Positions 2,548-28,556 of a stretch of 28,556 nt of DNA are shown here, piece after piece. This DNA is from a virus, in the IMG/VR virus record IMGVR_UViG_3300031951_000934, positions 1-28,556 of that record. One strand, 5' to 3'. Both the position numbers and the translations under genes were made by a program. The stretch's first letter is position 1, and the number at the start of each line of letters is the position of its first letter. The notes under the pieces are model-generated. The model worked only from the letters and a program-made list of their open reading frames with translations, was not told the DNA's origin and made no database searches.

Positions 2548-3087
2548 ATGATACGTTTGACAGGATTAGTTAATATTCCAGCAATAACCGAAAAAAAAGG
2601 TGAAGTTCGCAGTGAACAAGTAACAACAGTACAAGAAGATGTTACTGGCGCAATGGATGGTATGGAACAAGACAAACAACTTGATGACCACGAAGGTAGT
2701 ATGGCAAAAGCAGACCTTCTTGCTATTCACAAGCAAGCCGGTGAATTATATAATATGCTTGGTGAAAACGAAGAATTAGAAGGATGGGTTCAATCAAAAA
2801 TCACTAAAGCGGCAGACTACATTAATTCCGTATACAATAATATGCAATACGAGAAGAATAAGCCAAAGTCGGTTGGTAACGGGATGGGTACTCCTGCTGA
2901 TGGCGAAGCACCTATTAATGAAAGTGAACAACTAGAAGAAAAGGCACCAGTCGGATGGGAAGCAACAGTCAAAAAAATGAAGAAACATCATGAAATTGAT
3001 AATCCATGGGCGTTAGCACACTGGATGAAGAGTAAGGGATACCATCCACACACTGATAAAAAACCTAAGAAGAAAGGAAAGAAGTAA
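2548..3087 (+). CDS. Conserved T4-like phage structural-region protein, unknown function
   Basis: This 179-residue protein has a recognisable central segment, EGSMAKADLLAIHKQAGELY followed by GENEELEGWVQSKITKAADY. I have seen this pattern in small and medium proteins of marine T4-like phages, usually close to head genes; no biochemical role is known to me. The C-terminal part has an EIDNPWALAHWMKSKGY segment and a Lys-rich tail. The N-terminus (MIRLTGLVNIP) is of the MIR-type seen in several neighbours. CGGAG precedes the ATG. It lies 19 bases after the previous gene and 3 before the next, consistent with a polycistronic message. A virion-internal role is plausible but inferred. Confidence 0.78.
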   Translation: MIRLTGLVNIPAITEKKGEVRSEQVTTVQEDVTGAMDGMEQDKQLDDHEGSMAKADLLAIHKQAGELYNMLGENEELEGWVQSKITKAADYINSVYNNMQYEKNKPKSVGNGMGTPADGEAPINESEQLEEKAPVGWEATVKKMKKHHEIDNPWALAHWMKSKGYHPHTDKKPKKKGKK

Positions 3088-3090
3088 TTT

Positions 3091-3453
3091 ATGGAAACTG
3101 TCGCAAAGTTCGTCTCAATATTATTCTCCAGTAGAGAGCAAGCACATATCTTTCATTTACAAACACAATCATATGCCGCACATAAGGCACTGAACAGTTA
3201 TTATGAAGATATCGTAGATTTAGTGGATTCATATGTTGAATCATACCAAGGCAGATACGGTATTCTGGAAGGATACCAACCTGCATCTAAGTTTTTTGAA
3301 GATGATTCTGTAGTCAAGTATTTTGAAGGATTGTTGATGTTTGTGGACAAGATTCGTCAAGAACTTCCACAAGACGGTGAACTCAATAATACGGTAGATG
3401 AAATTGCAGGATTGATTTCTAGTACGATTTATAAACTGAAGTTCTTACAATGA
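3091..3453 (+). CDS. DUF5856-like protein (ferritin-like helical fold)
   Basis: The 120-residue product begins METVAKFVSILFSSREQAHI and continues with FHLQTQSYAAHKALNSYYED and VDLVDSYVESYQGRYGIL. This pattern of His/Glu/Asp in long helices matches my memory of the DUF5856 family of phage proteins, which look like small Dps/ferritin-type four-helix bundles. Whether it binds metal is unknown. In some T4-like genomes such genes sit near head genes. It starts 3 bases after the preceding stop, and its own stop overlaps the next start as ATGA, indicating translational coupling. The Pfam assignment is from memory and was not searched. Confidence 0.75.
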   Translation: METVAKFVSILFSSREQAHIFHLQTQSYAAHKALNSYYEDIVDLVDSYVESYQGRYGILEGYQPASKFFEDDSVVKYFEGLLMFVDKIRQELPQDGELNNTVDEIAGLISSTIYKLKFLQ

Positions 3454-5492
3454 GAGTTGATATGAAAAATAGAAATTTGTTAGAATCAATAGTTGATGAG
3501 CAAATAGAACGTAAAAGATTAAACGAAATCAATCAACTAATTAAAGAGTATGATTCATTAGATTCTATACTTATTGAAAATAAATCATATGATAGAGATG
3601 TCCAAATTGTAGTTCGTTTGGATGAACTTGGCGTGTTTGATGATATTTTAGAAGTAGTTCCTCGTGAACGCAAAGAATCCAGAAAACGAAATATGTTTGT
3701 AAATAGAGAATTACAAAAATTACGTGCTGCAGGACTACCCGACAGTATGATTGAGAAGGAGCGGAAAAACTTAGAAAAATCATGGAACGCCGAACGTACA
3801 ATAGATTCTAGATTAGCTAAAAGTGCAGCAGATATTGAACGTAGGCAGCAAACACAAACAGAACCGGAACAACCTGTTACTAGCAAATCAACATTTGGAG
3901 TTAAAATTGGACAACTTGCTAAAATGTTGGGGTCTGCTGTAAAAAGTGGTAAAACTCAACTTGTTTCGAGGATTAAAGCGGCAATTAATAAAGTTAGAGG
4001 AAAAAAGCCAGATACACCTGTATCGGATATACCTGGAATATCAAAAGACGTAGCTTCAAAAGTAGACGCTACGCCGGCACAAGTATCCGCAAGCCCAGAA
4101 GGAGAAGCTGATTTATTTGGTGGCACATCAACCCCAGAACCAACAAAAAAAGATACTACTGAACCGGAAGCTCCAACTAGTGCACTATCTGACCCTGACC
4201 AAACAAATTTAGATTTTGATACGCCAGCTGAAGAACCAGCCGCAGAAGAACCAAAAGATTCTGTCAGTCCTGAAACCAAGGATAGATTGCAAGCTTTAGC
4301 TGGAATTAAACCAGAAGAACCGGATTCTAAAAAACCAATAACTGAACCTGAAAGTAACACATCAAAAGAACCAACAACTGACCCCGTAAAAACCCCAGAT
4401 ACACCAGAAGAAACTCCTCCAGTAGCAAAAACAGGTACCAAAGGTGGTGGTACTAAAAAAATAACCGGCAGACAACCTAGAGGTACTGATAAAAAACCAG
4501 GTCAATCGGATACTCCTGGTGCTCCAGCCACATCTGATACGGGTACAGAAGGTGGTGAAGATAATACATCTGCTCCTCAAGGTACTTCAACTGAGCCACA
4601 AGGTACTACAGCCGAACCACCTTCTCCGCCAAGTGTTGCACAACAAACAATGGACAAGACGATGAACCGTCTTGGGTTACCAGTAGCGCCGAGTACCGAA
4701 AAAGACACAACTACGGGAACTACCGATAAACCAGACTCAGCTAAAAACTCGCGTATTGTACCGCCACCACCCCCGCCGCCGCCACCTCCACCACCACCGC
4801 CTCCACCACCACCGCCTCCACCGCCTCCACCGCCACCGCCTCCGTCGTCCGGTCCGCAACCAGACACAGCAGAGCCACCAAAACCAGAAACACCTGCTTC
4901 TACACCAGAACCAAAAAAGCCTGTTCAGCCGTGGTCACGGCAAGGAAGAGAAGCAAGAGCTAAAGAATTAGCAGATATGTCGCCAGAAGAAAAGGCACGT
5001 GCAAAAGAAAAAAGTATGCGTCGGATGGGATTTGTTCCTGACAAACGTAGCTTTACTGACAGAGTAAAAAGTGCGGGAAGAGCATTTATGGCTCCAGCAG
5101 GTACTTCTGTAGAAACTGAACCAATGAGTTGGAAGAGTAGATTTGCAGAAGTCCTTCAAATGATGGAAGAACTTCAACAAATAGAACGTCAATTGCACGA
5201 ATTATCTCTTGCCGAAGGATTGGTTGGTGGTCAAAAGAAACTAGATGTTGCCCCACCATATGGTAAATTAACTTCACAAGACTTTGCACAACTCCGAGCA
5301 CGTCGTAGTCATTTACGTAAAGCATTGGTCAAGGAAATGATTCGTGAAGAATTAGAAAAACATAACACTACACTAGCAGGATTAAATCCTCGTCAACGTA
5401 CTGCATTGATGGAATATGTCAAGAAACGTTCCACCAAGATGTGGGAAATGATGGCAGAAGCACGAATGAATGAAACCGTGGGTGACAACTAA
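3450..5492 (+). CDS. Large proline-rich disordered protein with 28-proline tract
   Basis: This 680-residue protein has three parts. Residues 1 to about 185 are charged and helical, with a basic stretch around 150-185 (KIGQLAKMLGSAVKSGKTQ and following). Residues 190 to about 495 are a Pro/Thr/Glu/Ser-rich disordered region holding RLQALAGIKPEE (DNA 4284-4319) and an uninterrupted run of 28 prolines (DNA 4761-4844). Residues 495-680 are helical and include GGQKKLDVAPPYGKLTSQDF, an EF-hand-like segment also seen in other T4-like phages, and a VKEMIREELEKH helix. It shares the RLQxLAGI element with the scaffold and the next protein, so it may be a prohead-core or internal virion protein. The ATG at 3450 overlaps the previous stop; an ATG at 3462 is an alternative. 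Confidence 0.78.
   Translation: MRVDMKNRNLLESIVDEQIERKRLNEINQLIKEYDSLDSILIENKSYDRDVQIVVRLDELGVFDDILEVVPRERKESRKRNMFVNRELQKLRAAGLPDSMIEKERKNLEKSWNAERTIDSRLAKSAADIERRQQTQTEPEQPVTSKSTFGVKIGQLAKMLGSAVKSGKTQLVSRIKAAINKVRGKKPDTPVSDIPGISKDVASKVDATPAQVSASPEGEADLFGGTSTPEPTKKDTTEPEAPTSALSDPDQTNLDFDTPAEEPAAEEPKDSVSPETKDRLQALAGIKPEEPDSKKPITEPESNTSKEPTTDPVKTPDTPEETPPVAKTGTKGGGTKKITGRQPRGTDKKPGQSDTPGAPATSDTGTEGGEDNTSAPQGTSTEPQGTTAEPPSPPSVAQQTMDKTMNRLGLPVAPSTEKDTTTGTTDKPDSAKNSRIVPPPPPPPPPPPPPPPPPPPPPPPPPPPPSSGPQPDTAEPPKPETPASTPEPKKPVQPWSRQGREARAKELADMSPEEKARAKEKSMRRMGFVPDKRSFTDRVKSAGRAFMAPAGTSVETEPMSWKSRFAEVLQMMEELQQIERQLHELSLAEGLVGGQKKLDVAPPYGKLTSQDFAQLRARRSHLRKALVKEMIREELEKHNTTLAGLNPRQRTALMEYVKKRSTKMWEMMAEARMNETVGDN
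4761..4844 (+). repeat. Run of 28 consecutive proline codons
   Basis: All 28 codons are CCN, with CCA and CCG most frequent and CCT and CCC interspersed, so the tract is not a simple one-codon expansion. On the other strand it gives a spurious polyglycine open frame. A run this long would stall ribosomes without elongation factor P. Confidence 0.95.
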
Positions 5493-5493
5493 G

Positions 5494-6459
5494 ATGGACA
5501 AGCAGTACCCACCGGTGGACGATATACAGATAGTACAACGAGAACAAACCACACATCCTGATGGAGATACAACGATGGAAGAACAATACTCACTGGAAGA
5601 ATGGCTCGGTATGTTGGAAGAAGCCGGGTATAGTTTAGAAGAAGGTAGTGTAGAAGATGAAACAAGTGCATTAAAAGCCGCACTATCAGCAAGAGGTAGT
5701 GAAAAAACTTTAGGAAAGGGCATGGCCGATATTAAAACTGCACTTCAAAGATTACAAGCTGCAAGAAAGGCAGCAAAAACTAATGAATCCTACACCCTAG
5801 AAGAATGGATGGGGATGTTGGAAGAAGTAGGATATGACATTAGTGAATATTCCTTATGGCGTCCAAAAGAAAGTGGGGCAAAGTCCACTGGTGTTATGAA
5901 AGACCCAAAGAAGCCAAAGACACCACCAGCAGAACCAACCAAACCAAAAAAGAAGTTAGATGAATTAAGTCCAGAATTAAAAGCTAGATATGCTGCCGCA
6001 GCACACACCCAAGTAGATAAAGAAGTTAATCGTAATTGGAATAGACCAAATCAAGAAAAGATTGCTAAGAGACTAAAGGGTATGTCTACCGCATATCAAA
6101 CTATGCCTGGTACTGAAAAAACGTCACAAGCCGTGGCCGACGTGGGTCATAGAATAGACCAAACATATGCGTTACAACAAAAGGCAGCAAACTCAGCACC
6201 ACGGCCACAACCAACAAACCCAACAACAAATCGTCCACCATTACCACCTCAAACATCGGTAGGTACGGCTAGACCACCACTTCCTGGTAGTAAGCCACCA
6301 GTACCACCGGCAACAAGAAGTGGTCCGCCACCAGTTCCACCACTTCCATCTAAGAAGCCAAAATTACCACCACTTCCAGGTAGAGCTGTGGCAGAGGCTA
6401 TCAACGAAAACACAGTATCACGTTTACAAAGTCTTGCAGGAATTAAACCAACAGAATAA
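5494..6459 (+). CDS. Proline-rich protein with two LEEW...LEEAGY modules and a C-terminal RLQxLAGI motif
   Basis: No known family. Two near-identical 19-residue modules are present: YSLEEWLGMLEEAGYSLEE (DNA 5587-5643) and YTLEEWMGMLEEVGYDISE (5791-5847). The scaffold protein carries a third copy. A basic helical middle is followed by a proline-rich region (PPLPP and PPVPP patterns, about DNA 6230-6390). The C-terminus is INENTVSRLQSLAGIKPTE, whose ENxV..RLQxLAGI core matches the scaffold's C-terminus. These shared elements make a prohead-core or core-binding role likely; this is inference. I prefer the ATG at 5494, just after the previous stop, with GGGTGA upstream. The in-frame ATG at 5470 would overlap the previous gene by 23 bases and add eight residues. 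Confidence 0.75.
   Translation: MDKQYPPVDDIQIVQREQTTHPDGDTTMEEQYSLEEWLGMLEEAGYSLEEGSVEDETSALKAALSARGSEKTLGKGMADIKTALQRLQAARKAAKTNESYTLEEWMGMLEEVGYDISEYSLWRPKESGAKSTGVMKDPKKPKTPPAEPTKPKKKLDELSPELKARYAAAAHTQVDKEVNRNWNRPNQEKIAKRLKGMSTAYQTMPGTEKTSQAVADVGHRIDQTYALQQKAANSAPRPQPTNPTTNRPPLPPQTSVGTARPPLPGSKPPVPPATRSGPPPVPPLPSKKPKLPPLPGRAVAEAINENTVSRLQSLAGIKPTE
5587..5847 (+). repeat. Two copies of a 19-residue LEEW...LEEAGY module
   Basis: The copies lie at 5587-5643 and 5791-5847, separated by a 48-codon charged linker. They are identical at most positions: (Y)(S/T)LEEW(L/M)GMLEE(A/V)GY(S/D)(L/I)(E/S)E. A third copy lies in the scaffold gene at 16146-16202. The pattern predicts an amphipathic helix. 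Confidence 0.85.
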
Positions 6460-6776
6460 TGTCACAGTATAAAAGATTCTTCAATTATTTATACGAAGGA
6501 TATCCGTGGGGTACGTATGATTATACCAAACGGGATGCAGAAACGCAACCGAATGGGGGAAGTGTACCCCAACAAGAACCAAATGACTTGGGAATGATAT
6601 CGGCACGTATCAGTGATATTATTGAAAGCAATACACCCACCAGTCCAGAGAAATGGGCACGTGCCAAAGCAGCGGCACGTGCCAAGTTCAAGGTCTACCC
6701 ATCTGCATACGCTAACTTGTGGGCAGCAAAGAAGTACAAGAGTATGGGTGGTGGATGGAAGAAGGGAAAGAAGTGA
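6459..6776 (+). CDS. DUF5872-like small basic protein
   Basis: The 105-residue product ends in a compact domain, SPEKWARAKAAARAKFKVYP followed by SAYANLWAAKKYKSMGGGWK. I recognise this as the DUF5872 type common in cyanophages and other T4-like marine phages. Its function is unknown to me; the basic, Trp/Tyr-rich character would suit nucleic-acid or virion-interior binding. The N-terminus MSQYKRFFNYLYEGYPWGTY is aromatic and may be a separate targeting segment. The ATG overlaps the preceding stop by one base (TAATG). The stop overlaps the GTG of the next gene. It forms a tight cluster with the two following small genes. Confidence 0.85.
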   Translation: MSQYKRFFNYLYEGYPWGTYDYTKRDAETQPNGGSVPQQEPNDLGMISARISDIIESNTPTSPEKWARAKAAARAKFKVYPSAYANLWAAKKYKSMGGGWKKGKK

Positions 6777-6928
6777 AACGGTTAAAAGATTTCATTCCGG
6801 AGGAATGGACCAAGGAATACAAGAAATCAATTAATTGCAGTAACCCAAAAGGTTTTAGTCAACGAGCCCACTGTGCAGGTCGTCGTAAACGGAAGCGTGG
6901 TGGTCAAACCAAATCCAAACCCGTATGA
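6773..6928 (+). CDS. Short conserved Cys-containing basic phage protein (51 aa)
   Basis: A GTG start at 6773 overlaps the previous TGA (GTGA) and is preceded by AAGGGA at a suitable distance. The 51-residue product contains INCSNPKGFSQRAHCAGRRK, followed by a basic, Gly/Lys-rich end. This CxNPKGFSxxAHCAxR pattern recurs in small T4-like phage proteins, often next to DUF5872-type and DUF6321-type genes as here. The two cysteines and one histidine could bind metal, but that is untested. Its stop overlaps the next ATG (ATGA). An in-frame ATG at 6755 is an alternative start with poorer context. Confidence 0.7.
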   Translation: MKRLKDFIPEEWTKEYKKSINCSNPKGFSQRAHCAGRRKRKRGGQTKSKPV

Positions 6929-7251
6929 TACGATTCACTGATTTACTTGTAGAAGTTGCCTTGGATGAGAAGTATAAACCCAAAGGTGAACTTGGAAAGT
7001 GGTTAAAGGAGAAATGGGTAGATATCTCCAGAAAAGACCCCAAGACCGGCAAGCATCCACCATGTGGAGCTTCGGCTGGTAAAAAGGAACGTAAAGGTGG
7101 GTCGGCAAAATATCCAAAGTGCAGACCAGCTCGCTCTGCAGCACGTATGACTAAAAGTGAAAAACGGTCAGCAGTTGTTCGTAAAAGAAAAGCAGGAAAT
7201 CCAGGTGGAAAACCAACAATGGTATCCACATTTAAGAAAAAGGAAGAATGA
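6925..7251 (+). CDS. DUF6321-like small basic protein
   Basis: This 108-residue protein has an N-terminal segment MIRFTDLLVEVALDEKYKPK and then a domain with KWLKEKWVDISRKDPKTGKH, a PPCGAS cysteine, a PKCRPA cysteine and MTKSEKRSAVVRKRKAGNPG. This order matches what I remember of DUF6321, a very common small protein of marine phages and some other entities; no function is established to my knowledge. The paired cysteines may coordinate a metal. The ATG overlaps the previous stop. The MIRFTDLL start resembles the capsid-targeting-like N-termini of neighbouring proteins, suggesting packaging into the head; this is inference. Confidence 0.85.
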   Translation: MIRFTDLLVEVALDEKYKPKGELGKWLKEKWVDISRKDPKTGKHPPCGASAGKKERKGGSAKYPKCRPARSAARMTKSEKRSAVVRKRKAGNPGGKPTMVSTFKKKEE

Positions 7252-7252
7252 T

Positions 7253-9052
7253 ATGGAACACTTAAATGAAGCCTGTTGGGACGGGTATAAGCAAGTTGGT
7301 ATGAAAAAAGTACAAGGACGCATGGTACCAAATTGTATTCCTATGGAAGAAGGAAAAACTTCACGAACGTTAGCTGGGTTGGGACTTGCGGCCGCAGCTA
7401 CACTTGGTGGGGCAAAAAGAGTACAAAATTTAGAAGAACCGTATAAAAACGTAAAAACATACTCTGAACCGAAAAAAGACGACACACGTAAACTCTCGTC
7501 ATACGGAGACGACATTCCTTTAGTTCCAGTAGACACAACATATAACCCAACTATAAGTGGTCGTCTCCGAGCTGCTATAACAGGACGTTCTCCATATACA
7601 GGAAGACGGGTAGTAAGTCCAGATGGAAAAACGGTTAATGTAATAAATCCAGATAATACTAATACTCCGTTAGACAATCCTAGAAACCAACGTGGTACAA
7701 ATCCGTATAAAATTACAGGCGGAGCTCGGTGGGGACATACCCCGGTTGCAAGTGGAGAAGGTCCAACCCGATATGATGCAGAAGAAGAAGCAAGAAATAA
7801 GATGATAGCACGAGGAGTACCTCCAAGTGAATTAGATAAAGATTATTCTTCTGCTGCTTATTTAGGTCAATCACGCCTACCACCGAACGCACCACAGACA
7901 AGACGGATTCTTGTTGGTGAACCTCCAATACTTGGTAGCAACGGCGAGCGGATACAACCATTTGGTGCATATTTTGGTAAAAAACAAAAATTTATACCTA
8001 GAGATAGACTAGATTTAAGAAATCAAGATACAATACCATCATTTGTTCCTGTACCAGAGAGTTCAGAACCAACAGATGAAGGATTAAAGAATATTGTTCA
8101 AGATTTAAAAAAGGTTGGAAAAGTAACAAGTCATACCATGTTCAGAGAACCTGGAGAAGCTCAAGAACTTATTCGTAAACTAAAAGCACTTCAAGCGACT
8201 AAGGCAGAAAAAGCGACCGCAACCAAAGAAGTCGATGAAGGTAGATTAAGTAAATTAGCGGGAGCAGCCGCATTAGCCTTAGCTGCAGGAAAGGCTGGAG
8301 CACAAGGACACCCAGCGTTAGGACCAGTCGATGCACAACGCGCAGATTCGGCAGCAATGATGACGCATGCTAAAGATTATATGAATGCTCCGACAACATC
8401 AGATGCAGAGATTACGGCACTAAACCGTTTTGGTACAGCGGCAAAGGGTAGAGCTGGTAGAGTATTCACCACACAGGCAAAAAATATTCCTGATTATCAA
8501 GGACCAGAAAACGCTCGTCGTCGGTCAGCAGACTCTACGGCATTTGTTGATGCAAGTATGATGAGTCGTATGGCAGATTTACAAAAACAAAAACAAGCAG
8601 CAACCGGCGCAGGTAATGCTGAACTTGATAGAGAAAGAATTAGTCGTGACGCTGACGCAAACCGAGCATATACTGGAGTACGTGACACCGCACTAAATAC
8701 TTTAGCAGGACAATTAAAACCAAGAGTCCAAGAAGATGAAATTAATGAATATTGCCCACGCTGTTTAATTGAAGTGTTATCAGGTCAACATCCAGAACAA
8801 CTTGGCGAAGCTCAGTACCAAGGTCGTACTGTTTCTCTTGGAAAACCAATGCGAGGGGACGTAAAGAAGTTTAAGGTATTCGTTCGTGACCCACAAACTG
8901 GAAATATTAAAAAGGTCAATTTCGGTGACAAGACGATGAAGATTAAGAAGTCCAATCCAGCCCGCCGTCGTTCATTCCGTGCAAGACATCATTGCGATAC
9001 CAATCCTGGACCAAGAACGAAAGCAAGATACTGGAGTTGTCGGAAGTGGTAA
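7253..9052 (+). CDS. Conserved multidomain phage protein, unknown function (599 aa)
   Basis: The ATG at 7253 directly follows the previous stop, with AGGAAG upstream; a 32-residue upstream extension is in frame but lacks these features. The N-terminus (EACWDGYKQVGMKKVQGRMV, then PNC) is a motif I know from T4-like phage virion-region proteins. A long low-complexity middle contains two Ala/Leu/Gly-rich hydrophobic stretches (DNA about 7349-7417 and 8234-8302). The C-terminus carries CPRC, then LGKPMRGDVKKFKVFVRDPQ and NPARRRSFRARHHCDTNPGP, ending in YWSCRKW. This C-terminal module recurs in marine T4-like phages and looks like a small cysteine-containing domain. A role as a structural or internal head protein is likely but not shown. 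Confidence 0.75.
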   Translation: MEHLNEACWDGYKQVGMKKVQGRMVPNCIPMEEGKTSRTLAGLGLAAAATLGGAKRVQNLEEPYKNVKTYSEPKKDDTRKLSSYGDDIPLVPVDTTYNPTISGRLRAAITGRSPYTGRRVVSPDGKTVNVINPDNTNTPLDNPRNQRGTNPYKITGGARWGHTPVASGEGPTRYDAEEEARNKMIARGVPPSELDKDYSSAAYLGQSRLPPNAPQTRRILVGEPPILGSNGERIQPFGAYFGKKQKFIPRDRLDLRNQDTIPSFVPVPESSEPTDEGLKNIVQDLKKVGKVTSHTMFREPGEAQELIRKLKALQATKAEKATATKEVDEGRLSKLAGAAALALAAGKAGAQGHPALGPVDAQRADSAAMMTHAKDYMNAPTTSDAEITALNRFGTAAKGRAGRVFTTQAKNIPDYQGPENARRRSADSTAFVDASMMSRMADLQKQKQAATGAGNAELDRERISRDADANRAYTGVRDTALNTLAGQLKPRVQEDEINEYCPRCLIEVLSGQHPEQLGEAQYQGRTVSLGKPMRGDVKKFKVFVRDPQTGNIKKVNFGDKTMKIKKSNPARRRSFRARHHCDTNPGPRTKARYWSCRKW

Positions 9053-15530: not shown

Positions 15531-16742
15531 ATGGCAGAAGTACAAATCACGAACAGACTTCTTAGAGAAGCCATTGCCGATGCAGAAGTCATGAGACAAA
15601 CTGCTATTGAAAACGCAAAGCTTTCATTAGAAGAAACGTTCACACCCCAAATTAAATCCATGTTAGAACGTAAGCTCCGTATGGAAGGAGAAGGCATGGA
15701 AGAAGCAACAGAAATGGACGCACATGAAGCAGAAGCAGAAGGTGGTGAAATGGCAGATTCATCAGAGATTGGTGACGCCGAAAATAAGGAACCATCTGAC
15801 GCAGCATTTGATTCTGCCGAAGACGACACCAGTGGTGAAGGTCATCACGATGGTGGAGAAGATGCATGGTACGAAGATTGGTCAGAATCAGACTTTGACC
15901 TTAAGGAAGTTATCCAAGAACTAGAAGAAGATATTCTAGCCATGGAAGGAAAGGATAAAGATGAAGAAGGTGAAGAAGAAGATAAAGATGAAAGTGAAGA
16001 TGAAGAAGGTGAAGAAGAAGATAAAGATGAAAGTGAAGAAGAATACGAAGAAGGCGAATATCCGGAAGGCGAACCAGCAGGTGATGAAGACAGTAAAAAG
16101 TCAGTTCCTGCAAAGTCTGATGATATTGGTCTTGCAAAAGAAACTTATACTTTAGAAGAATTCCTCACAGCATTAGAAGAAGCAGGATACAACTTAGAAG
16201 AAACACACGCTTCTCAGCAAGGTGTAGACCACCCAGAAATGGGGATGGCTGAAGAAAGTGATTTAAACCTAGAAGAAATTCTAGCTATGATGGAAGCCGA
16301 AGATGCACAACTTCAAGAAGAAGAAACATCTGAAAAAATGGCATCCGAAGTAAAGGCACTTCAAGAAGAGCTCGCAGAATATCGTACGGCGGTTGAGTTC
16401 CTACGAGGCAAGCTAAACGAAGTCAATCTATTGAATGCAAAATTGTTATACACCAACAAAATCTTCCGTAAGGAAGGTTTGACCAACGAACAAAAGGTCA
16501 CTATCGTAGAAAACTTTGACCGTGCAACCACAGTACGTGAAGTCAAGATGGTGTACGCAGTTCTTGCAGAATCATTGGTACCGCAACGTACAAAGGCCGT
16601 TAAGTCAGCCAAGAAAGTTGTTGCAGAAGGATTGGCAAGTAAGCCAACCCCAAGTACCGCACCAAAGACACCAGCACCAGAAGTTATCTCAGAAAACTCT
16701 GTTGCTAAGCGTTTACAACAACTCGCAGGAATAATTTCATAA
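15531..16742 (+). CDS. 22: Prohead core scaffold protein (T4 gp22-like)
   Basis: This is the major scaffold that fills the prohead and is later degraded by gp21. The 403-residue product is strongly acidic. It has an N-terminal helix (QITNRLLREAIADAEVMRQT), a central Glu/Asp-rich region with a perfect tandem duplication, and a C-terminal coiled-coil domain: EVKALQEELAEYRTAVEFLR, then NEVNLLNAKLLYTNKIFRKE, the best gp22-like signature. Residues 206-224 (YTLEEFLTALEEAGYNLEE) copy a module of the 5494-6459 protein. The C-terminus (ISENSVAKRLQQLAGIIS) resembles that protein's end. T4 gp22 is 269 residues, so the acidic insert explains the extra length. AAGGAG precedes the ATG. It lies 19 bases upstream of the major capsid gene. 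Confidence 0.92.
   Translation: MAEVQITNRLLREAIADAEVMRQTAIENAKLSLEETFTPQIKSMLERKLRMEGEGMEEATEMDAHEAEAEGGEMADSSEIGDAENKEPSDAAFDSAEDDTSGEGHHDGGEDAWYEDWSESDFDLKEVIQELEEDILAMEGKDKDEEGEEEDKDESEDEEGEEEDKDESEEEYEEGEYPEGEPAGDEDSKKSVPAKSDDIGLAKETYTLEEFLTALEEAGYNLEETHASQQGVDHPEMGMAEESDLNLEEILAMMEAEDAQLQEEETSEKMASEVKALQEELAEYRTAVEFLRGKLNEVNLLNAKLLYTNKIFRKEGLTNEQKVTIVENFDRATTVREVKMVYAVLAESLVPQRTKAVKSAKKVVAEGLASKPTPSTAPKTPAPEVISENSVAKRLQQLAGIIS
15960..16037 (+). repeat. Perfect 39-bp tandem duplication in scaffold gene
   Basis: Two adjacent identical 39-base units (15960-15998 and 15999-16037) each encode DEEGEEEDKDESE. Identity at every base points to a recent in-frame duplication in the acidic region. 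Confidence 0.92.
16146..16202 (+). repeat. Third copy of LEEW/F...LEEAGY module, within scaffold
   Basis: Residues 206-224 of the scaffold read YTLEEFLTALEEAGYNLEE, matching the two copies at 5587-5643 and 5791-5847. A weaker relative, LNLEEILAMMEAED, follows about 20 residues later. Confidence 0.8.
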
Positions 16743-18479: not shown

Positions 18480-19634
18480 ATGGAAACACAAGAACCAATT
18501 TTTTATGATGGGTCACCAAGTAATCCAGTCGGCGTAACTCCGTTTGGATTTTTTGATACTGATTCCGAATTCCAATCCGATGCACCGAAAGCAGCCGAAT
18601 GGGTTGCGCGGCGGTTAGGATATCCTGTCGTAGAAGTTGAACTAGTAGATAAACAAATTTATGCGTGTTTTGAAGAAGCAATAACAGTATATAGTAACCA
18701 AGTTAATCAGTTCAATGCACGAGAGCACATGATGTCACTACAAGGTGCATCAACGTCAATATCAGCAACACAAAAAAATATTGTAGGGTCTGCAATACCC
18801 CAACTAATCAAAATTGCAAGTGATTATGGTACTGAAGCACAGTCCGGTGGAAACGTTACTGTTAAAAAAGGTTACATATCTGCTTCCATAGGAACACAAA
18901 GTTACGATTTAAAAACATTGTGGGCTGACGTTAGTGAAAGTGGAAAAGCAATTGAAATTCGTCGTATCTATCACTATATGCCACCTGCTATTGCTCGTTA
19001 CTATGACCCATTTGCAACAACTGGTCTTGGATTAACCAATTTGATGAGTGAGTTTGGATTTGACGGATACTCACCACCAGTTACCTTCGTGATGATGCCG
19101 GCATACGAAGACCTCCTTCGTATTCAAGCAATTGAAGTCAATGACATGATTCGTAAGAGTCAATATGGATTTGAAGTATCTAATAATGTTGTTAGATTCA
19201 CTCCAATATTTAAAGAAAGTAAAGTTATTTGGTTTGATTATATGGTAGTCGATGACAAAAAAAATGGGTTATACCAATCGGGTAGTAATATTATCAGCGA
19301 CTTTTCAAATGTCCCATATGACTATATCACATATTCAAAAATAAATGATATGTCAAAAACATGGATATTCAAATATACATTGGCACTTGCTAAGGAATTA
19401 TTAGGAATCATCCGTTCTAAATTTGATAATATTCCGTACCCAGATGGACAAATTCGTTTAGACGGAAATACTTTACGAAAAGAAGGTACAGATGAAAAAA
19501 TGATGTTAATCAAGGAACTTAGAGATACTCTTGAGCAAACCGGTCATCGTGCACAAATGCAAAAACAGATGGAAAATTCTGAAAATATGCAGAAGATGTT
19601 AGCAAATATTCCTACACTTATTTACGTGGGTTAA
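18480..19634 (+). CDS. 13: Neck protein, T4 gp13-like (head completion)
   Basis: In T4, gp13 binds the portal after packaging and recruits gp14 to form the collar/neck. The 384-residue product has TPFGFFDTDSEFQSDAPKAA, then EWVARRLGYPVVEVELVDKQ and IYACFEEAITVYSNQVNQF. This is the gp13 pattern of an N-terminal FGF.D.D..F..DA..v..fv.rRLG segment followed by a helical YxxFEEAxxxY segment. A later GFEVSNNVVRFTPIFKESKV region forms a beta domain. The C-terminus is helical and rich in Met/Gln. It is longer than T4 gp13 (309). It is the first gene after the capsid terminator and lies 4 bases before the gp14-like gene. Confidence 0.8.
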   Translation: METQEPIFYDGSPSNPVGVTPFGFFDTDSEFQSDAPKAAEWVARRLGYPVVEVELVDKQIYACFEEAITVYSNQVNQFNAREHMMSLQGASTSISATQKNIVGSAIPQLIKIASDYGTEAQSGGNVTVKKGYISASIGTQSYDLKTLWADVSESGKAIEIRRIYHYMPPAIARYYDPFATTGLGLTNLMSEFGFDGYSPPVTFVMMPAYEDLLRIQAIEVNDMIRKSQYGFEVSNNVVRFTPIFKESKVIWFDYMVVDDKKNGLYQSGSNIISDFSNVPYDYITYSKINDMSKTWIFKYTLALAKELLGIIRSKFDNIPYPDGQIRLDGNTLRKEGTDEKMMLIKELRDTLEQTGHRAQMQKQMENSENMQKMLANIPTLIYVG

Positions 19635-19638
19635 CTAA

Positions 19639-20097
19639 ATGCCAAGATTTGTAACTCAGAGAGATTACGAGTTTATACAACACATCACCCGTGAAATGAT
19701 TGACGAAACGATGGACGTTGGAGTGGTGTTATACAAAATAGTGTTAGATTCTGTAAAAATTAATTTATATGGAGAGAGTGTCTCAAAACCACGATATACT
19801 CCTGTAAAGGTGAATGCGGTGGTTAACTATAATAAGAACATAGTCACATCCGGTGATGGTTTTGGACTAGAACAACAACAAAGAGTAGATTTTAGATTTG
19901 CACGTAGAATGCTACAAGAAGTAAATGTCTATCCCGAAATTGGTGACATTATAGGATACAATAATCATTATTACGAAATAAATAATATGACGGAAACACA
20001 ATTAATTGCGGGTAAACCAGGATTCAATACAGCAATTATTTGTGCATCACATTTAACTCGTCGTACCAGTATTGATATTGAAGAGGCGCAAGTATGA
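19639..20097 (+). CDS. 14: Neck protein, T4 gp14-like
   Basis: The 152-residue product has YTPVKVNAVVNYNKNIVTSG, then RVDFRFARRMLQEVNVYPEI and GDIIGYNNHYYEINNMTETQ. The order of a variable N-terminus, an FxFxR strand, a P-E-x-G-D-x-I turn and a YYEI strand matches head-closure/neck proteins of the gp14 type. T4 gp14 is 256 residues, so this is a shortened version lacking the extended C-terminus. The assignment is supported by order (gp13-like upstream, gp15-like downstream); sequence alone would not settle it. The stop overlaps the next ATG (ATGA). Confidence 0.65.
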   Translation: MPRFVTQRDYEFIQHITREMIDETMDVGVVLYKIVLDSVKINLYGESVSKPRYTPVKVNAVVNYNKNIVTSGDGFGLEQQQRVDFRFARRMLQEVNVYPEIGDIIGYNNHYYEINNMTETQLIAGKPGFNTAIICASHLTRRTSIDIEEAQV

Positions 20098-22430
20098 CAT
20101 TTAATCCAGAATATAAAGAACCTGTAAAGGTTGTAAATGATAATCAACAAGTTCCTAGACTTCAAAATAGAGCAGATGATACGCAGCAAGAAGATTCTCC
20201 TACTATAAAAGTAACATTATACACGGTAGACAATACCATATTAAGGTATATGTCAGACAGAATAAAACCGATTATTACACAAAATGGAACACAAGTAAAA
20301 GTTCCTGTAATTTACGGTAATCCAGAACGTTGGAAAAGTGCTCAAACTGATGGAATTATAAGAGATTCTATAGGGAAGATACAATTACCTGTTATTATGT
20401 TACGTAGAACAGCGATGAAAAAAGCTGGTATAAATTCAGCAGTTAATAAATACTATGACAGAAGTTTCATTACTGGTTGGAATAGAAGAACTCCATACGA
20501 CAGATTTAGTGTAGTAAATAATATAACACCCTCGCGTGAATATTATAACACTACCGCCGTTCCCGATTATTACAATCTAACTTACAGATGTATGGTATGG
20601 ACAGAATACATGGAACAAATGAATTCTGTGATTGAAAATATATCATTTGAAAGTGATGAGTTCTGGGGGGAACGTAATCAATATAAGTTTAGAACAATGA
20701 TTGATTCTTTTGAACCGATTACAGAATTGCCGGTATCAGGAGATAGAGTAGTCAGAACACAATTTGACATGAATGTATTTGCATATCTCTTACCGGAATC
20801 ACAACTAGACCAAGGTGGGAACAGAGGACGTATAACCAAGAAACGATATGGTGTTAAGAAAATTGTAACATTCAATGAGATAGATAACGGTGACGGAACA
20901 TCTACCATAGACGATGGATATCTAAAAGTTGGTACGTTATACGTTACCGCAGACAAAACAACTGTTTTTGAAGGTGAGTCGGTCACTTTTACTATACGGG
21001 GTACAGGATATATTAACGATGGAACGCCTATAGAGTGGAATAATATAGGGACATCAACTTCTGCCGATTTTGTGGGAGGTGTAGACTCGGGCTCAGTAAT
21101 TTTAAGTAGTTCTACATTGGGTCCGGCAACCGCTACCGTTACCTTAACTGTAGTATCAGATGGAATAACCGATTCGTCAGAAACAATACAACTATACGTA
21201 ATTAAACAAGCTGATGTTAGCTTGGGACTTGGTCGAGCATTTTCTCCGATTGTCACCATCCAAGACCCACAGACACCACAAGGAGAATTATATGCATGGG
21301 GTGGATGGGATGGATATCTCAGATATCCAGATGCATACGATAATTTAGGCATCGGAGCATTCACAGTTAATACAACATCACCCGCACAGGTAGGTTCAAA
21401 TGCAACGTGGACGGATGTACAGCCACAGATTAATTCTACAGTAGCATTACGCTCGGATGGTACGTTGTGGGTATGGGGTGATAATATACTACCAGATTTC
21501 ACCCCGTCACCGATAGTGGGATTAATAGGATTGGGTCCATCAGTAAGTGGTTCAAACACACCGACTCAAATAGGTACTGGATATACGTGGTCTAAAATAG
21601 CTGTTGGTGAAAGATTCTTTGTTGCCCTTCGTTCGGATGGCACTATGTGGACTACGGGAAGAAATGAGTATGGTCAGTTAGGATTGGGAGATACTACTGA
21701 TAGAAATGTATTGACACAAATCGGTAGTGACTCCAACTGGTCAAAAATATTTGCAGGTGATAGTGTTTTCATGGCAATTAAATCCAATGGAACGTTATGG
21801 GCCACAGGACTAAACATAGAAGGTCAGTTGGCGGTGGGAGATAATACGGATAGAAGTGTATTAACACAGGTAGGGTCTGACACTAACTGGGATATGGTAA
21901 GTTCTGCTGGTGGCTATACTATGGCTATTAAAACTAATGGTACTTTGTGGGCAGCAGGAGGAGGTGGATTAAAACCAAATATGGGATTGGGGGCACCAAC
22001 AATAGGTAGTGATGTTACCTCATTTACACAAGTTGGGTCTGATACCAATTGGTCACTTGTTCAAGTTGGTTCCTCTCACACACTTGCATTGAAAACCGAT
22101 GGTACTTTGTGGGCAACCGGATATAACCTAGAAGGTCAATTAGGATTGGGAGATACGACTGATAGAGATGTCTTTACCCAAGTAGGGTCAGATACATGGA
22201 CATATGCCGGCGCCGCTAATTATGCGTCATTTGGTATAAAAACAAATGGTACACTATGGTCATGGGGATACAATAATGACCCGACGGGGACATTTGGTGG
22301 TCGTCTTGGATTGGGGGATTATACAGATAGAAATGTACCTACGCAAATAGGAAGTAATACAGATTGGATAAAGGTGTATGCAGGTAATTCCTATACACAA
22401 TATTCTGTTTTCGGTATACGTGACGTATAA
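20094..22430 (+). CDS. 15: gp15-like tail completion protein fused to Calx-beta domain and RCC1 beta-propeller
   Basis: Residues 1-240 resemble T4 gp15, the ring that caps the tail tube and sheath and joins it to the neck: VKVPVIYGNPERWKSAQTDG, IQLPVIMLRRTAMKKAG, YRCMVWTEYMEQMNSVIENI and VVRTQFDMNVFAYLLPES. T4 gp15 is only 272 residues. Residues about 279-371 look like a Calx-beta/Ig-like domain (VFEGESVTFTIRGTGYINDG, then DSSETIQLYV). Residues about 398-776 hold seven repeats with LW-x-x-G cores (starting near 399, 458, 518, 568, 618, 672 and 721) preceded by A(L/I)(R/K)(S/T)(D/N)GT, the pattern of RCC1 seven-blade propellers. The product is therefore about three times the usual size. The add-on domains probably project from the neck; receptor, glycan or partner binding is inferred. 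Confidence 0.8.
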   Translation: MTFNPEYKEPVKVVNDNQQVPRLQNRADDTQQEDSPTIKVTLYTVDNTILRYMSDRIKPIITQNGTQVKVPVIYGNPERWKSAQTDGIIRDSIGKIQLPVIMLRRTAMKKAGINSAVNKYYDRSFITGWNRRTPYDRFSVVNNITPSREYYNTTAVPDYYNLTYRCMVWTEYMEQMNSVIENISFESDEFWGERNQYKFRTMIDSFEPITELPVSGDRVVRTQFDMNVFAYLLPESQLDQGGNRGRITKKRYGVKKIVTFNEIDNGDGTSTIDDGYLKVGTLYVTADKTTVFEGESVTFTIRGTGYINDGTPIEWNNIGTSTSADFVGGVDSGSVILSSSTLGPATATVTLTVVSDGITDSSETIQLYVIKQADVSLGLGRAFSPIVTIQDPQTPQGELYAWGGWDGYLRYPDAYDNLGIGAFTVNTTSPAQVGSNATWTDVQPQINSTVALRSDGTLWVWGDNILPDFTPSPIVGLIGLGPSVSGSNTPTQIGTGYTWSKIAVGERFFVALRSDGTMWTTGRNEYGQLGLGDTTDRNVLTQIGSDSNWSKIFAGDSVFMAIKSNGTLWATGLNIEGQLAVGDNTDRSVLTQVGSDTNWDMVSSAGGYTMAIKTNGTLWAAGGGGLKPNMGLGAPTIGSDVTSFTQVGSDTNWSLVQVGSSHTLALKTDGTLWATGYNLEGQLGLGDTTDRDVFTQVGSDTWTYAGAANYASFGIKTNGTLWSWGYNNDPTGTFGGRLGLGDYTDRNVPTQIGSNTDWIKVYAGNSYTQYSVFGIRDV
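21285..22421 (+). repeat. Seven RCC1-type repeats (beta-propeller coding region)
   Basis: The repeats are about 50-60 codons each, with cores such as ALRSDGTMWTTGRNEYGQLG, AIKSNGTLWATGLNIEGQL and ALKTDGTLWATGYNLEGQLG. They are usually followed by LGDTTDR and (T)Q(V/I)GSD. Blade 5 lacks the GQLGLGD stretch in its usual form, and blade 1 is the most diverged. Confidence 0.85.
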
Positions 22431-22439
22431 TAATTGATG

Positions 22440-22467
22440 TTTACATAAAAAAACAGATATTTATAAT
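22440..22467 (+). promoter_or_regulatory. Sigma70-like promoter before tail sheath cluster
   Basis: TTTACA (22440-22445) and TATAAT (22462-22467) are separated by 16 bases, in the 71-base gap after the gp15-like gene and about 35 bases before the next ATG. The second element is an exact -10 consensus. The same region reads TATTTATA (22458-22465), which is TATAAATA on the other strand. Confidence 0.45.
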
Positions 22468-22501
22468 ACGAGTTGTATTACACACAAAATGAGGTTATTT
22501 T

Positions 22502-22792: not shown

Positions 22793-25156
22793 ATGGCAGA
22801 AAGAATCGTGTCACCTGGCGTTTTTACGCAAGAACGTGACCAATCATTCCTCGCACAAGGTGTGGCTGAAATTGGTGCCGCATTTGTGGGTCCAACACCA
22901 GATGGACCAGCATTCGTTCCTGTAGTTGTACAAGGTCAACAACAATTTGAAACAACGTTCGGTGTTCCCGATGCAAATTCTTACGTAGGATATACTGTAC
23001 AAAACTACTTGCAGGAAGCAGGTAGTGCTACGGTTGTTCGTGTTCTAGGTTTGAGTGGCTATAATAGCAAAGGCGTATACTTATACACCAGTGGTTCTGC
23101 TGGACTAAAATTGTTAGCACTACTTCACCCAACCACTTCTGGTAGTTTGGGTAGTGGAATTGCAAGTGTAAGTGTGGGCGGTAACACAGGTAGTTTCAGT
23201 ATCTTAATCAGTAGTTCAAATGCAAGTGGACCACATATTTCACAAAGTGGAATAAATTTTGTTGATAATTCTGGTAATCCTAATTATGTAGGAACGGTGT
23301 TTGGCACAGCAGTAAATAACCCAAATTCACCGATATACACTTATGCAGTATTCCCAAATGCACTTGAACAAGCAGGAAGCTACACATCACCAACTAATCA
23401 ATTGTACGCAGTAACGGCAAGTATAAACTTTACTGGGGTTGAATACAGTAACGGTAGTACTCCGTGGATTCAATCACAACCAATCGCAGGTGAAACTAAA
23501 AATCTGTTTAAGATTCATACGATTAATGATGGTGAAAAGGCAAACACAAGATATAAAATTCTCATCACGAATGTTCAAAAAAATATAGATGGATTAAGTG
23601 AATATGGTACGTTCGGATTACAAGTATGTGAATATGACGACAAAACAAACAATGCAACAGTTGTAACAGGTGGAGATTTTACTGTACCACCATTAACACT
23701 AGACCCATCAAGTCCAAACTATATTGCAAGAAGAATTGGTAATAGTGAACCAACATATAATAGTGAAACAGGTGAAACTTATTACGAAGGTGACTTCCCT
23801 AATGTATCACGTTTAATTAGAGTAGAAATGGCGCCAGATGTTGCTCCAACTACCGCTGTGCCGTTTGGATTTGCTGCACTGTTCTCTTCTGTTTCTAGTT
23901 CGCAATCACAGTTGACTTCGGCATCATACAATATTAGTAGATACACCGACCCAAGTACGGGAGCTCGTGGGTATACCACTACGGCAACTGGTCCAGATGC
24001 AACATATTATGGGTTTGATTTTACCAGTAGAACTGCACGTTCGTTACTTGCTCCTGTAGCAAGTACTTCCTTAACAGTCGGAAGTGCATTCAATCTTACA
24101 TCTAGTCTTGGTGCAACGGAATACGCAGGCAACCGTCTATCGTTGGAAGATACCACAAGTACGGCAGCAAGATATCGTAGTTTTGCGGTACCATTCCAAG
24201 GTGGATTCAGTGGACTTAACCCGGCCAGACAAATAGCCATGGGTCCAGCAATAACAAACACAAATACACAAGGATTTAATTTATCAAGTGCGTTATCATC
24301 TGGTTCGGCAGAATATAAGAGAGCCCTAAGAACCCTATCTAATCCAGATAGTGTTGACATGAATCTTTTGGTGATACCTGGTGTACTATATTCACAACAT
24401 TCCTATATTGCACAATATGCAATTGATTTATGTGAAAGTCGTGGAGACTGCTTCTATATCATGGATATGGACACGTTAAACGCATCAATATCAACAGTTG
24501 CTAGTACGGCACGTACTTTAGATACAAACTATGCGGCAACATACTATCCATGGGTACGTATTCAAGACACAAATACACAAACATTTATCTGGGCACCACC
24601 ATCAGTTGTTCTTCCAGAGGTGTATGCATACAGTGATAACGTTGGTGCAGAATGGTTTGCACCGGCAGGATTGAATCGTGGTGGTATTCCGGGTGCAGTG
24701 GGTGTTAAGACTAGATTAACACAAATGGAACGTGATACACTATACGAAAGTAAAGTTAATCCAATTGCACAGTTTCCAGGACAAGGTATCTGCGTCTGGG
24801 GACAAAAGACATTACAACGTCGGTCATCAGCACTTGACCGTGTGAACGTTCGTCGTCTTCTTATCACAGTTAAGAAATTCATCGCAAGTTCAGCACGTTA
24901 CTTGGTCTTTGAACAAAATACTGAAGCAACACGTAATCGTTTCTTGAACATTGTCAATCCATATTTAGCAAGTATTCAACAAAATTCAGGATTAACCGCA
25001 TTCCGTGTTGTCATGGATGAATCAAATAACACACCAGATATTATTGACCGTAATATCTTGGCTGGAGCAATTTATCTCCAACCAACCCGTACCGCAGAAT
25101 TTATCAAGCTTGATTTCAACATTCTTCCAACGGGCGCAACATTTGACACCATCTAA
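22793..25156 (+). CDS. 18: Contractile tail sheath protein (T4 gp18-like)
   Basis: gp18 subunits wrap the tail tube and contract on infection. The 787-residue product starts ERIVSPGVFTQERDQSFLAQ, the usual sheath N-terminus. It has a large variable middle (Ser/Thr/Gly-rich, surface domains) and a conserved C-terminal domain: VRRLLITVKKFIASSARYLV, then FEQNTEATRNRFLNIVNPYL and AGAIYLQPTRTAEFIKLDFN. T4 gp18 is 659 residues; the extra length lies in the exposed domains before the conserved C-terminal half. GGAG precedes the ATG. A perfect 11-bp hairpin overlaps the final codons and the stop codon. Confidence 0.96.
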   Translation: MAERIVSPGVFTQERDQSFLAQGVAEIGAAFVGPTPDGPAFVPVVVQGQQQFETTFGVPDANSYVGYTVQNYLQEAGSATVVRVLGLSGYNSKGVYLYTSGSAGLKLLALLHPTTSGSLGSGIASVSVGGNTGSFSILISSSNASGPHISQSGINFVDNSGNPNYVGTVFGTAVNNPNSPIYTYAVFPNALEQAGSYTSPTNQLYAVTASINFTGVEYSNGSTPWIQSQPIAGETKNLFKIHTINDGEKANTRYKILITNVQKNIDGLSEYGTFGLQVCEYDDKTNNATVVTGGDFTVPPLTLDPSSPNYIARRIGNSEPTYNSETGETYYEGDFPNVSRLIRVEMAPDVAPTTAVPFGFAALFSSVSSSQSQLTSASYNISRYTDPSTGARGYTTTATGPDATYYGFDFTSRTARSLLAPVASTSLTVGSAFNLTSSLGATEYAGNRLSLEDTTSTAARYRSFAVPFQGGFSGLNPARQIAMGPAITNTNTQGFNLSSALSSGSAEYKRALRTLSNPDSVDMNLLVIPGVLYSQHSYIAQYAIDLCESRGDCFYIMDMDTLNASISTVASTARTLDTNYAATYYPWVRIQDTNTQTFIWAPPSVVLPEVYAYSDNVGAEWFAPAGLNRGGIPGAVGVKTRLTQMERDTLYESKVNPIAQFPGQGICVWGQKTLQRRSSALDRVNVRRLLITVKKFIASSARYLVFEQNTEATRNRFLNIVNPYLASIQQNSGLTAFRVVMDESNNTPDIIDRNILAGAIYLQPTRTAEFIKLDFNILPTGATFDTI

Positions 25157-25186: not shown

Positions 25187-25205
25187 ATAAAAGACTATTT
25201 ATATA
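25187..25205 (+). promoter_or_regulatory. Possible late promoter before tail tube gene
   Basis: AATAAAAGACTATTTATAT lies between the sheath hairpin and the gp19 start. It shares the CTATTTAT core with the gap before the gp13-like gene. Support comes only from recurrence and from the need to restart transcription after the hairpin. Confidence 0.3.
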
Positions 25206-26168: not shown

Positions 26169-28556
26169 ATGACCTTGGTTCCAGGAGTACCGAACATCCG
26201 AGTCATTATACGAGAAGCAAACGATGAAAACTTAACGGTAGATGTACCAAACATCTCCGTAAAAATTCTTGATAGTGACCAGTACAATGTAAATATAACT
26301 CCAAACTCCGTTACAACATTGCGTACGGGGTCGTTTAACACATACGCAGATTTTGCAAACATTGCAAACACCGCATCATACGCATTAACGGCATTATCAT
26401 TATCAGGCTCAATTGATTCTGCTTCATATGCAAGTTTTGCATTAACTGCATCATATGTTAGTGGCGCAGCAAGTACATGGGATGACATATCAAATAAACC
26501 GAATGGATTGGTATCGTCTTCTGTACAAGTAATAAACTATAATATATTTGCCACCACGGGGTCAAACACATTTGTCGGTAACCAGATAATCACAGGTTCA
26601 CTTATTGTATCAGGTTCATCTACTCTTACAAATATAGGACCAGCAATATTTAGTGGTTCAATTAACGTCACAGAAGGAATTACCGGGTCGTTGTTTGGTA
26701 CAAGTAGTTGGTCTATTAACGCGGTATCTGCCTCGTATGCAATTACTCCCTCAGGTACATCGGGTACCAGTGGAATTGCTGGTAGTTCTGGTACAAGCGG
26801 TAATAGTGGCTCTTCTGGTACATCAGGTACGACAGGTTCTAGTGGTTCATCAGGAACATCGGGAAATACTGGTTCATCAGGAACATCGGGGGCAACCGGT
26901 TCAAGTGGGACTACAGGCTCGTCAGGAACATCAGGTAGTTCTGGCTCATCGGGTACCAGTGGAGTTACTGGCAGTTCTGGTACTTCTGGTATAAATGGTT
27001 CAAACGGTACTTCGGGTAATAATGGTTCTTCTGGCACTTCTGGGCAGAATGGAAGTGCCGGTACTAGTGGAACTAGTGCAGACGTAATTATTAGTGGAAG
27101 TGCTCCAAGTAATCCAACTACAGGGTCTTTGTGGTACGATGATACCACAGGTAAAACATATATTTATTATGTTAGTCAATCCGTGGGGTCGTGGGTACTT
27201 CAATCAGACCCAACATTTGACCCAGGTCCAACATTACAAGATTTACAAGATGTAACAGATTTAGGTGCAACAACGACAAATGCTATTATAATAGCAAATA
27301 CAACCACCGCAGCAAATACTGGTTCTGGTGCGTTAATTGTTTCCGGTGGATTGGGTGTAAAACAAAACATATACGCTAGTAATATAATTGCCGTGAATAC
27401 AATAACTGCGACGGGGTTTACCGCGTCAGCAGGATATTTTGGTACCGCAAGTTGGGCACAAAATGCGGTTACTGCTTCATACGCCTTAAATGCAAGTGCG
27501 GGTGGAAGTGGTACGGCAGGTAGTTCAGGTACATCGGGCCAAACGGGGTCATCGGGTACGGCCGGGTCGGCAGGAAGTTCAGGGACTAGCGGACAGAATG
27601 GAAGTTCTGGTACATCAGGTCAAAGTGGGTCATCGGGTACGAGTGGTAGTTCTGGTTCATCAGGAACATCCGGCTCAACAGGGTCATCTGGAACATCGGG
27701 GTCATCCGGAACTAGAGGTTCAAGTGGAACATCAGGAAGTTCAGGTACATCAGGAAATAATGGTAGCTCGGGAACATCGGGTTCTACTGGTAGTTCTGGA
27801 ACTTCTGGAAACACTGGTTCATCCGGAACAAGTGGAAACACTGGTTCTTCTGGTACTTCTGGTCAGAACGGAAGTAGTGGAACTGCGGGGTCGTCTGGTA
27901 CAGCAGGTTCATCAGGTACGCAAGGCTCTTCAGGAACTAGTGGAAACTCTGGAAGTTCAGGTACATCGGGTCAAACAGGAAGCAGTGGAACATCTGGTAT
28001 AACCGGGTCATCGGGTACGTCTGGTATAACTGGCTCTTCTGGTACTAGCGGAAACACGGGCTCGTCGGGTACATCAGGTAACACGGGCTCATCAGGAACA
28101 TCAGGAAACACTGGTTCATCGGGAACATCAGGAAACACTGGTTCATCGGGAACATCGGGTTCTACAGGTAGTTCTGGTACATCTGGAAACACAGGTTCAT
28201 CGGGAACATCAGGTAACACCGGCTCCTCTGGAACAAGTGGGTCTACGGGTAGTAGTGGTACATCAGGTTTAACAGGAAGTTCTGGTACTTCTGGAGTATC
28301 TGGTAGTAGTGGAAGTTCAGGTACATCTGGGTCGTCTGGTACTGCAGGACTCACGGGTAGTTCTGGTACATCAGGTAACACGGGTTCTTCCGGTACGTCT
28401 GGACAGAATGGAAGTTCAGGTACATCGGGTGTATCTGGTAGTAGTGGAACATCCGGTTCTACCGGCTCATCGGGTACTTCAGGAAGTTCTGGTACTTCAG
28501 GACAAACAGGTAGTTCAGGTACTAGTGGTAATACGGGTTCATCTGGAACCAGCGGT
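26169..28556 (+). CDS. Collagen-like tail fibre protein (truncated at window edge)
   Basis: An open frame starts at ATG 26169, three bases after the previous stop, and runs without a stop to the last base (796 codons so far). The N-terminal part (about residues 1-190) is Ser/Ala/Thr-rich with SGSIDSASYASFALTASYVS and ITGSLFGTSSWSINAVSASY, motifs frequent in phage fibres. A first Gly-X-Y block covers DNA 26754-27077. A globular linker follows (27078-27500, with GSLWYDDTTGKTYIYYV and a second GTASWAQNAVTASYALNAS). A second block runs from 27501 to the edge. The protein is proline-poor in these blocks; GSS, GTS and GNT triplets dominate. It is expected to form a trimeric collagen-like shaft for receptor contact. 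The distal receptor-binding tip and any chaperone are outside the window. Confidence 0.88.
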   Translation, partial: MTLVPGVPNIRVIIREANDENLTVDVPNISVKILDSDQYNVNITPNSVTTLRTGSFNTYADFANIANTASYALTALSLSGSIDSASYASFALTASYVSGAASTWDDISNKPNGLVSSSVQVINYNIFATTGSNTFVGNQIITGSLIVSGSSTLTNIGPAIFSGSINVTEGITGSLFGTSSWSINAVSASYAITPSGTSGTSGIAGSSGTSGNSGSSGTSGTTGSSGSSGTSGNTGSSGTSGATGSSGTTGSSGTSGSSGSSGTSGVTGSSGTSGINGSNGTSGNNGSSGTSGQNGSAGTSGTSADVIISGSAPSNPTTGSLWYDDTTGKTYIYYVSQSVGSWVLQSDPTFDPGPTLQDLQDVTDLGATTTNAIIIANTTTAANTGSGALIVSGGLGVKQNIYASNIIAVNTITATGFTASAGYFGTASWAQNAVTASYALNASAGGSGTAGSSGTSGQTGSSGTAGSAGSSGTSGQNGSSGTSGQSGSSGTSGSSGSSGTSGSTGSSGTSGSSGTRGSSGTSGSSGTSGNNGSSGTSGSTGSSGTSGNTGSSGTSGNTGSSGTSGQNGSSGTAGSSGTAGSSGTQGSSGTSGNSGSSGTSGQTGSSGTSGITGSSGTSGITGSSGTSGNTGSSGTSGNTGSSGTSGNTGSSGTSGNTGSSGTSGSTGSSGTSGNTGSSGTSGNTGSSGTSGSTGSSGTSGLTGSSGTSGVSGSSGSSGTSGSSGTAGLTGSSGTSGNTGSSGTSGQNGSSGTSGVSGSSGTSGSTGSSGTSGSSGTSGQTGSSGTSGNTGSSGTSG
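26754..27077 (+). repeat. Gly-X-Y collagen-like block 1
   Basis: There are 108 codons in strict Gly-X-Y register, mostly GSS, GTS, GNT and GNN-type triplets with no proline. The block is flanked by non-repetitive fibre sequence. Confidence 0.9.
27501..28556 (+). repeat. Gly-X-Y collagen-like block 2 (continues past window)
   Basis: About 117 Gly-X-Y triplets are visible, with a common nine-residue period G-T-S-G-x-x-G-S-S. Synonymous codons vary freely from unit to unit (GGT/GGA/GGC/GGG; TCA/TCT/TCG/AGT/AGC). The opposite strand therefore shows spurious Pro/Val/Asp/Glu-rich open frames. Confidence 0.92.

Follow-up and report, generated by a model that had tools for sequence, protein, structure and literature searches.

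The locus lies on IMGVR_UViG_3300031951_000934, a partial contig from an uncultured virus, and all 28,556 bases of it (28.6 kb) form the window analysed here. The window has a T4-like build, encoding a large terminase, a gp20-type portal, a gp23-type capsid protein, a gp13-like adaptor, a sheath and a tube, and among named phages its capsid protein comes closest to those of Flavobacterium phage immuto (55%), of an uncultured 484-kb phage (52%) and of Microcystis phage Mel-JY01 (51%). From the capsid gene onwards the order is gp13-like adaptor, a 152-aa protein, the reading frame that concerns us, an 88-aa protein, sheath and tube, an arrangement that is syntenic among relatives, and every neighbour from the capsid protein through a 112-aa gene has relatives among the 79 clade loci. 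The frame itself (20094-22430) is open over 778 aa with no internal stops and sits between the neck genes and the sheath, which is the position expected of the gp15 (PF16724) family. Its product falls into three parts: a gp15-family terminator, a poorly predicted beta-rich linker (about residues 264-397) and an RCC1 propeller (about residues 398-778). Coordinates are collected in Table 1. The first-pass annotation had read a gp13-14-15 neck order at this point; the gp13 slot stands, with its PHROG match, and the gp14 slot holds by position alone, profile comparison of the 152-aa neighbour having given no link to T4 gp14.

Table 1. Features at and around the fusion gene.
Feature	Coordinates	Strand	Basis or remark
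gp13-like head-tail adaptor	18480..19634	+	PHROG 211 (Ad2), E 2.5e-15
152-aa neck-region protein, gp14 position	19639..20097	+	synteny; identity by position only
gp15-family tail terminator / sheath stabiliser domain, residues 1-263	20094..20882	+	complete relative to stand-alone homologues
Conserved C-terminal stretch TKKRYGVKKIVTFNEI	20835..20882	+	last residues of stand-alone homologues; K255/F260/E262 conserved
Whole insertion relative to homologues	20883..22427	+	in frame, up to the stop codon
Linker and beta-rich (Ig/Calx-beta-like) region, residues 264-397	20883..21284	+	
Seven-blade RCC1 propeller, residues 398-778	21285..22427	+	Pfam, motifs, model
Intergenic element	22456..22479	+	conserved 3' of gp15 among relatives, intact despite the insertion
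Tail sheath (gp18-like), expected gp15 partner	22793..25156	+	PHROG 23, E 2.4e-74; PF04984

Several flanking features deserve mention in their own right. The 24 bases of the intergenic element, GATATTTATAATACGAGTTGTATT, have exact copies outside the window in 50 of the fetched loci, some of which overlap; TATTTATA within it recurs upstream of the tube gene at 25196, and the element is a possible late promoter. In the sheath, blocks of 40 residues between about 121 and 480 mostly average 36-46% identity across relatives, compared with 88-95% from residue 601 on, and this fast-changing middle is likely the outer surface. Directly upstream of the capsid gene, a 403-aa protein with a strongly acidic Glu/Asp-rich stretch (15531-16742) had no match in a family search and may be a scaffold-type protein. 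At the far end (26169-28556) lies a protein resembling tail fibres that contains long collagen-like arrays of GSSGTSG, its gene truncated by the end of the contig.

Domain make-up of the fusion protein

By tblastn, the N-terminal part is found alone in immuto, Mel-JY01 and LR756508, and in Mel-JY01 it occupies the same gene place, ahead of the sheath. PF16724, the T4 gp15 family, is the commonest Pfam match in our 52-member alignment of the N-terminal family (A1; 11 members, best E 1.9e-4); the window protein itself scores 14.3 bits (E 0.023), under the cut-off of 25. Aligned by hhalign with ten T4-to-cyanophage-type gp15 sequences, the family gives E 2.4e-5 with a probability of 76% over 152 columns, and the gp15 profile, run against PDB sequences, returned no real match. 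The AlphaFold model of this part has a moderate mean pLDDT of 63.6, with core blocks up to 87, and the best PDB fold for residues 39-236 is T4 gp15 (Foldseek E 2.3e-7); VIA gives T4 gp15 (4huh) Z 13.7 over 150 residues at 3.2 A, above the other terminators, with T5 p142 at 11.7. T4 gp15 (PF16724; PDB 4HUD, 4HUH, 9MKB) shares the predicted fold and the gene position, and at 272 aa it matches the window's stand-alone homologues (263-275 aa) in size, but it has none of the added domains and is only about 13% identical in the fold match. We consider the gp15 identity well supported by predicted fold and position and more weakly by sequence, in keeping with the original reading of residues 1-240 as gp15-like.

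In the propeller, seven LW-x-x-G-type motifs lie at residues 399, 458, 518, 568, 618, 672 and 721, the Pfam families WD40_RLD, RCC1_2 and RCC1 all score above their curated cut-offs, and AlphaFold predicts a closed ring whose blades mostly reach pLDDT 80-94. In model numbering, a strand at 139-145 comes ahead of the first full blade, and the last blade is three-stranded, a predicted strand order consistent with the usual closure of the RCC1 fold. Against 7q40 the model gives Z 47.8 over 350 residues at 1.9 A, and its full-ring matches are HERC2, RCC1 and UVR8 (Z 47.8 to about 42), so that the seven blades first called from the repeats are borne out by motif, profile and model. With human RCC1, the RCC1-like domains of HERC2 and plant UVR8 it has the repeat motif and the closed seven-blade fold in common; here, however, the ring is attached to a phage tail terminator, and Ran or photoreceptor roles are not expected. 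Its nearest RCC1 relatives are about 41-45% identical, no close donor being found above about 45%, and a search of bacterial and archaeal genomes yielded three loci at 37-40% (compared by identity alone).

Between these parts, beta strands are predicted for residues 264-397, but the model stays below pLDDT 50. This part matches phrog_1922 weakly (E 4e-4) and resembles the N-terminus of a protein in which a beta domain precedes RCC1 (locus L323; 37% over 469 residues). Both findings speak for a beta module; the label Calx-beta, given earlier to residues 279-371, is not confirmed, no Pfam match and nothing reliable in a PDB sequence search having been obtained.

In-frame insertion and its rarity among gp15 proteins

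The DNA of relatives aligns with the window to about 20884 and picks up again at the stop codon (22427-22429), and the intervening insert has no match in any of the 79 clade loci. It adds 515 codons with the frame intact, all seven blades present and a coding-like codon-position composition, and the sequence 3' of the stop, including the 24-base element, is preserved relative to relatives. As the stretch between codons 226 and 518 lacks an ATG, initiation at ATG could not yield an intact propeller on its own. Alignment with relatives shows that an ordinary gp15 gene received the module in frame, immediately ahead of its stop codon. A gene end at the junction in relatives had been named beforehand as a sign of an assembly join, and relatives do stop near 20880, which is also what would speak for a chimera of a gp15 gene and an RCC1 gene; read with the surrounding sequence, that stop reflects the in-frame insertion and not a bad join. 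Both flanks belong to one lineage and stand in order, the insert ends in frame at the stop codon, and the downstream element is undisturbed. A second contig (L009) has the same fusion, runs across the two junctions and departs from the window at 4 of 5575 bases, although it may come from the same sample. We therefore reject an assembly artefact as hardly credible.

For the survey of relatives, the best 80 per query of about 480 IMG/VR gp15 relatives were taken for three queries, giving 137 distinct complete gp15 proteins, 80 in a window-like set and 57 in a sister set; leaving out immuto (L005) and Mel-JY01 (L006) from the former gives the clade count of 78. An IMG/VR query with the Microcystis phage homologue gave none that was confirmed. 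Among the best 80 IMG/VR relatives, the complete ones end at 263-275 residues with L009 as the sole exception. The protein of the window and L009 is the only RCC1 carrier among the 78 distinct complete clade proteins listed, and none of the 57 of the sister clade carries RCC1, so the cargo is as unusual as first supposed, and the fusion is known from one phage, in two contigs. It did not appear in the literature searched, an absence that is weak evidence. Fold, profile and relative comparisons together support a gp15 protein fused to a seven-blade RCC1 propeller and unique among its relatives, and we take the join to be genuine, a clean and rare fusion of two kinds already known.

Other extensions occur at the same end of gp15. 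In the sister clade, 49 of the 57 proteins listed carry a different extension of about 100-150 aa there; these immutovirus-type proteins (immuto and relatives) are of the same family, at 34-38% identity, and are extended at the same place, but by a sequence unlike RCC1. Two further T4-like gp15 proteins, from Campylobacter phage F341 (343 residues) and Vibrio phage PVA8 (448 residues), are longer than that of T4, with no confident Pfam domain found in the extra part. To judge from these sequences, the gp15 C-terminus is a repeated attachment point that tolerates other extensions. Across the immuto-like loci (L093-L172) gp15 is mostly extended by 100-150 aa, and in one of them (L121) the extension is a separate downstream ORF, 4004-4285.

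A possible role at the neck

Phage terminators elsewhere form hexamers, and the gp15 core would likewise form a hexameric ring under the neck, still capping tube and sheath. In Vibrio phage XM1 the C-terminus of the terminator contributes a strand to the sheath, and there are spikes bound to the neck (PMC10457771); in P1, N- and C-terminal parts of the terminator likewise join the sheath, though T4 gp15, according to that paper, had been believed not to use such a handshake (PMC10304247). By analogy with XM1 gp5 and P1 gp24, the stretch TKKRYGVKKIVTFNEI may be a sheath-binding strand, this conserved last gp15 strand likely pairing with the top sheath ring. Because the last element of the stand-alone homologues is a conserved strand, KKxVTFTE, the new domains probably begin at the sheath surface; the T4 crystal is without the gp15 C-terminus, and the place proposed for it in the window phage follows the same analogies. 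The beta-rich linker and then the propeller would point outward, with up to six propellers of about 40 kDa each per virion, and the module would most likely serve as an accessory binding surface for a glycan or protein of the host envelope. The XM1 neck (terminator gp5, collar spike gp40) offers a parallel in that the terminator C-terminus reaches the sheath and Ig-like domains tie the spike proteins to the neck, but there the spike is a separate protein. It had also been suggested that the propellers stand in for fibritin-type whiskers. This finds no support: T4 fibritin docks on domain III of gp13 (PMC12270204), an older review having placed the fibritin loop at gp15 (PMC3004832), and a partial contig cannot show that a whisker gene is absent.

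We lean, with somewhat better than even confidence, towards a gp15 terminator that still caps tube and sheath and bears a C-terminal display module, likely an accessory binding surface. The propeller might instead bind other parts of the virion, such as neck proteins or tail fibres in the retracted state, much as whiskers hold fibres, or might stiffen the neck, in either case making no host contact. RCC1 propellers are indeed protein-interaction platforms, complexes with Ran, COP1 and TEM-1 being among the fold matches, and T4 neck fibres touch the long tail fibres (PMC3004832, PMC12270204). Yet relatives with a nearly identical neck and sheath lack the propeller, which argues against a general structural need, and we hold this alternative to be unlikely, if worth keeping in view. 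An insertion with no function, tolerated because the gp15 C-terminus is free, would account for a singleton among the 78 distinct clade proteins listed and for an RCC1 domain whose best relatives are only about 41-45% identical; the frame kept over all the added codons, with every blade in place and a coding-like composition, makes it distinctly improbable. Least likely of these is a cleavage that would release the propeller in soluble form, perhaps as an inhibitor of the type of BLIP-II, a secreted RCC1-fold protein among the fold matches (1jtd, Z 27.7), since no independent ATG start is available and no cleavage signal was recognised. A portable binding module on the neck ring, likely in six copies, is in our view the best reading, and it is reasonable to suppose that the propellers would surround the neck and may bind host or glycan, a view with comparative support from related phages, where RCC1 occurs in fibre-type genes and as a swappable C-terminal cargo.

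RCC1 modules in other phages

Among the related records searched, RCC1 is found in three (G004, G022, G040) and is missing from most. In G004, whose gp15 is 65% identical and which holds locus L073, an RCC1 domain about 40% identical to ours follows the core, of about 110 residues, of another small protein. The same core is bare, at 115 residues, in two records (G001, G002), is followed in a third (G003) by a Thr-rich linker and another C-terminal sequence, and in a more distant relative (G019) by yet a different one; the cargo of G003 and G019 was considered as a LamG lectin and the assignment dropped, the Pfam match in G019 being sub-threshold (E 0.023) and a PDB sequence match for G019 not being obtained. 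In G022 and G040 the RCC1 repeats lie within fibre-type proteins, and outside the clade phage RCC1 proteins adjoin fibre-type genes (L089-L092, L323). As far as gene context tells, these are the places expected of exchangeable surface modules.

Phage RCC1 proteins are labelled in PHROGs as DNA or chromosome factors, and DNA ordering has been proposed for them (PMC7247149); in phage GAP32 the RCC1 protein is a virion protein (PMC5259590). Our propeller shares its repeats with these proteins (PHROGs 7220, 4219 and 16766; GAP32 Gp1; the phAPEC6 paralogues) but those fetched or described are separate or fibre-type proteins, not terminators. For none of the phage RCC1 proteins was a ligand found. 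That a propeller is fused to an external virion protein speaks against reading such proteins as DNA or chromosome factors, and the fusion offers a testable surface role for them. Tail terminators are usually seen simply as parts needed for assembly. That this one carries a large display domain, and that the sister clade has another extension at the same position, suggests that the neck ring is a site where surface modules can be attached and can evolve. We speculate further, and regard it as possible though rather doubtful, that six propellers form a binding crown in the terminator, placing host recognition at the neck and not the baseplate, and that the C-termini of small structural proteins are general sockets for interchangeable binding modules.

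Two of the loci can be given more exactly. The RCC1 fusion of G004 lies at about 82011-83550 of that record (517-2052 of locus L337), and in L323 two paralogous genes for a beta domain followed by RCC1 (2635-4026 and 5864-7279) alternate with fibre-like genes.
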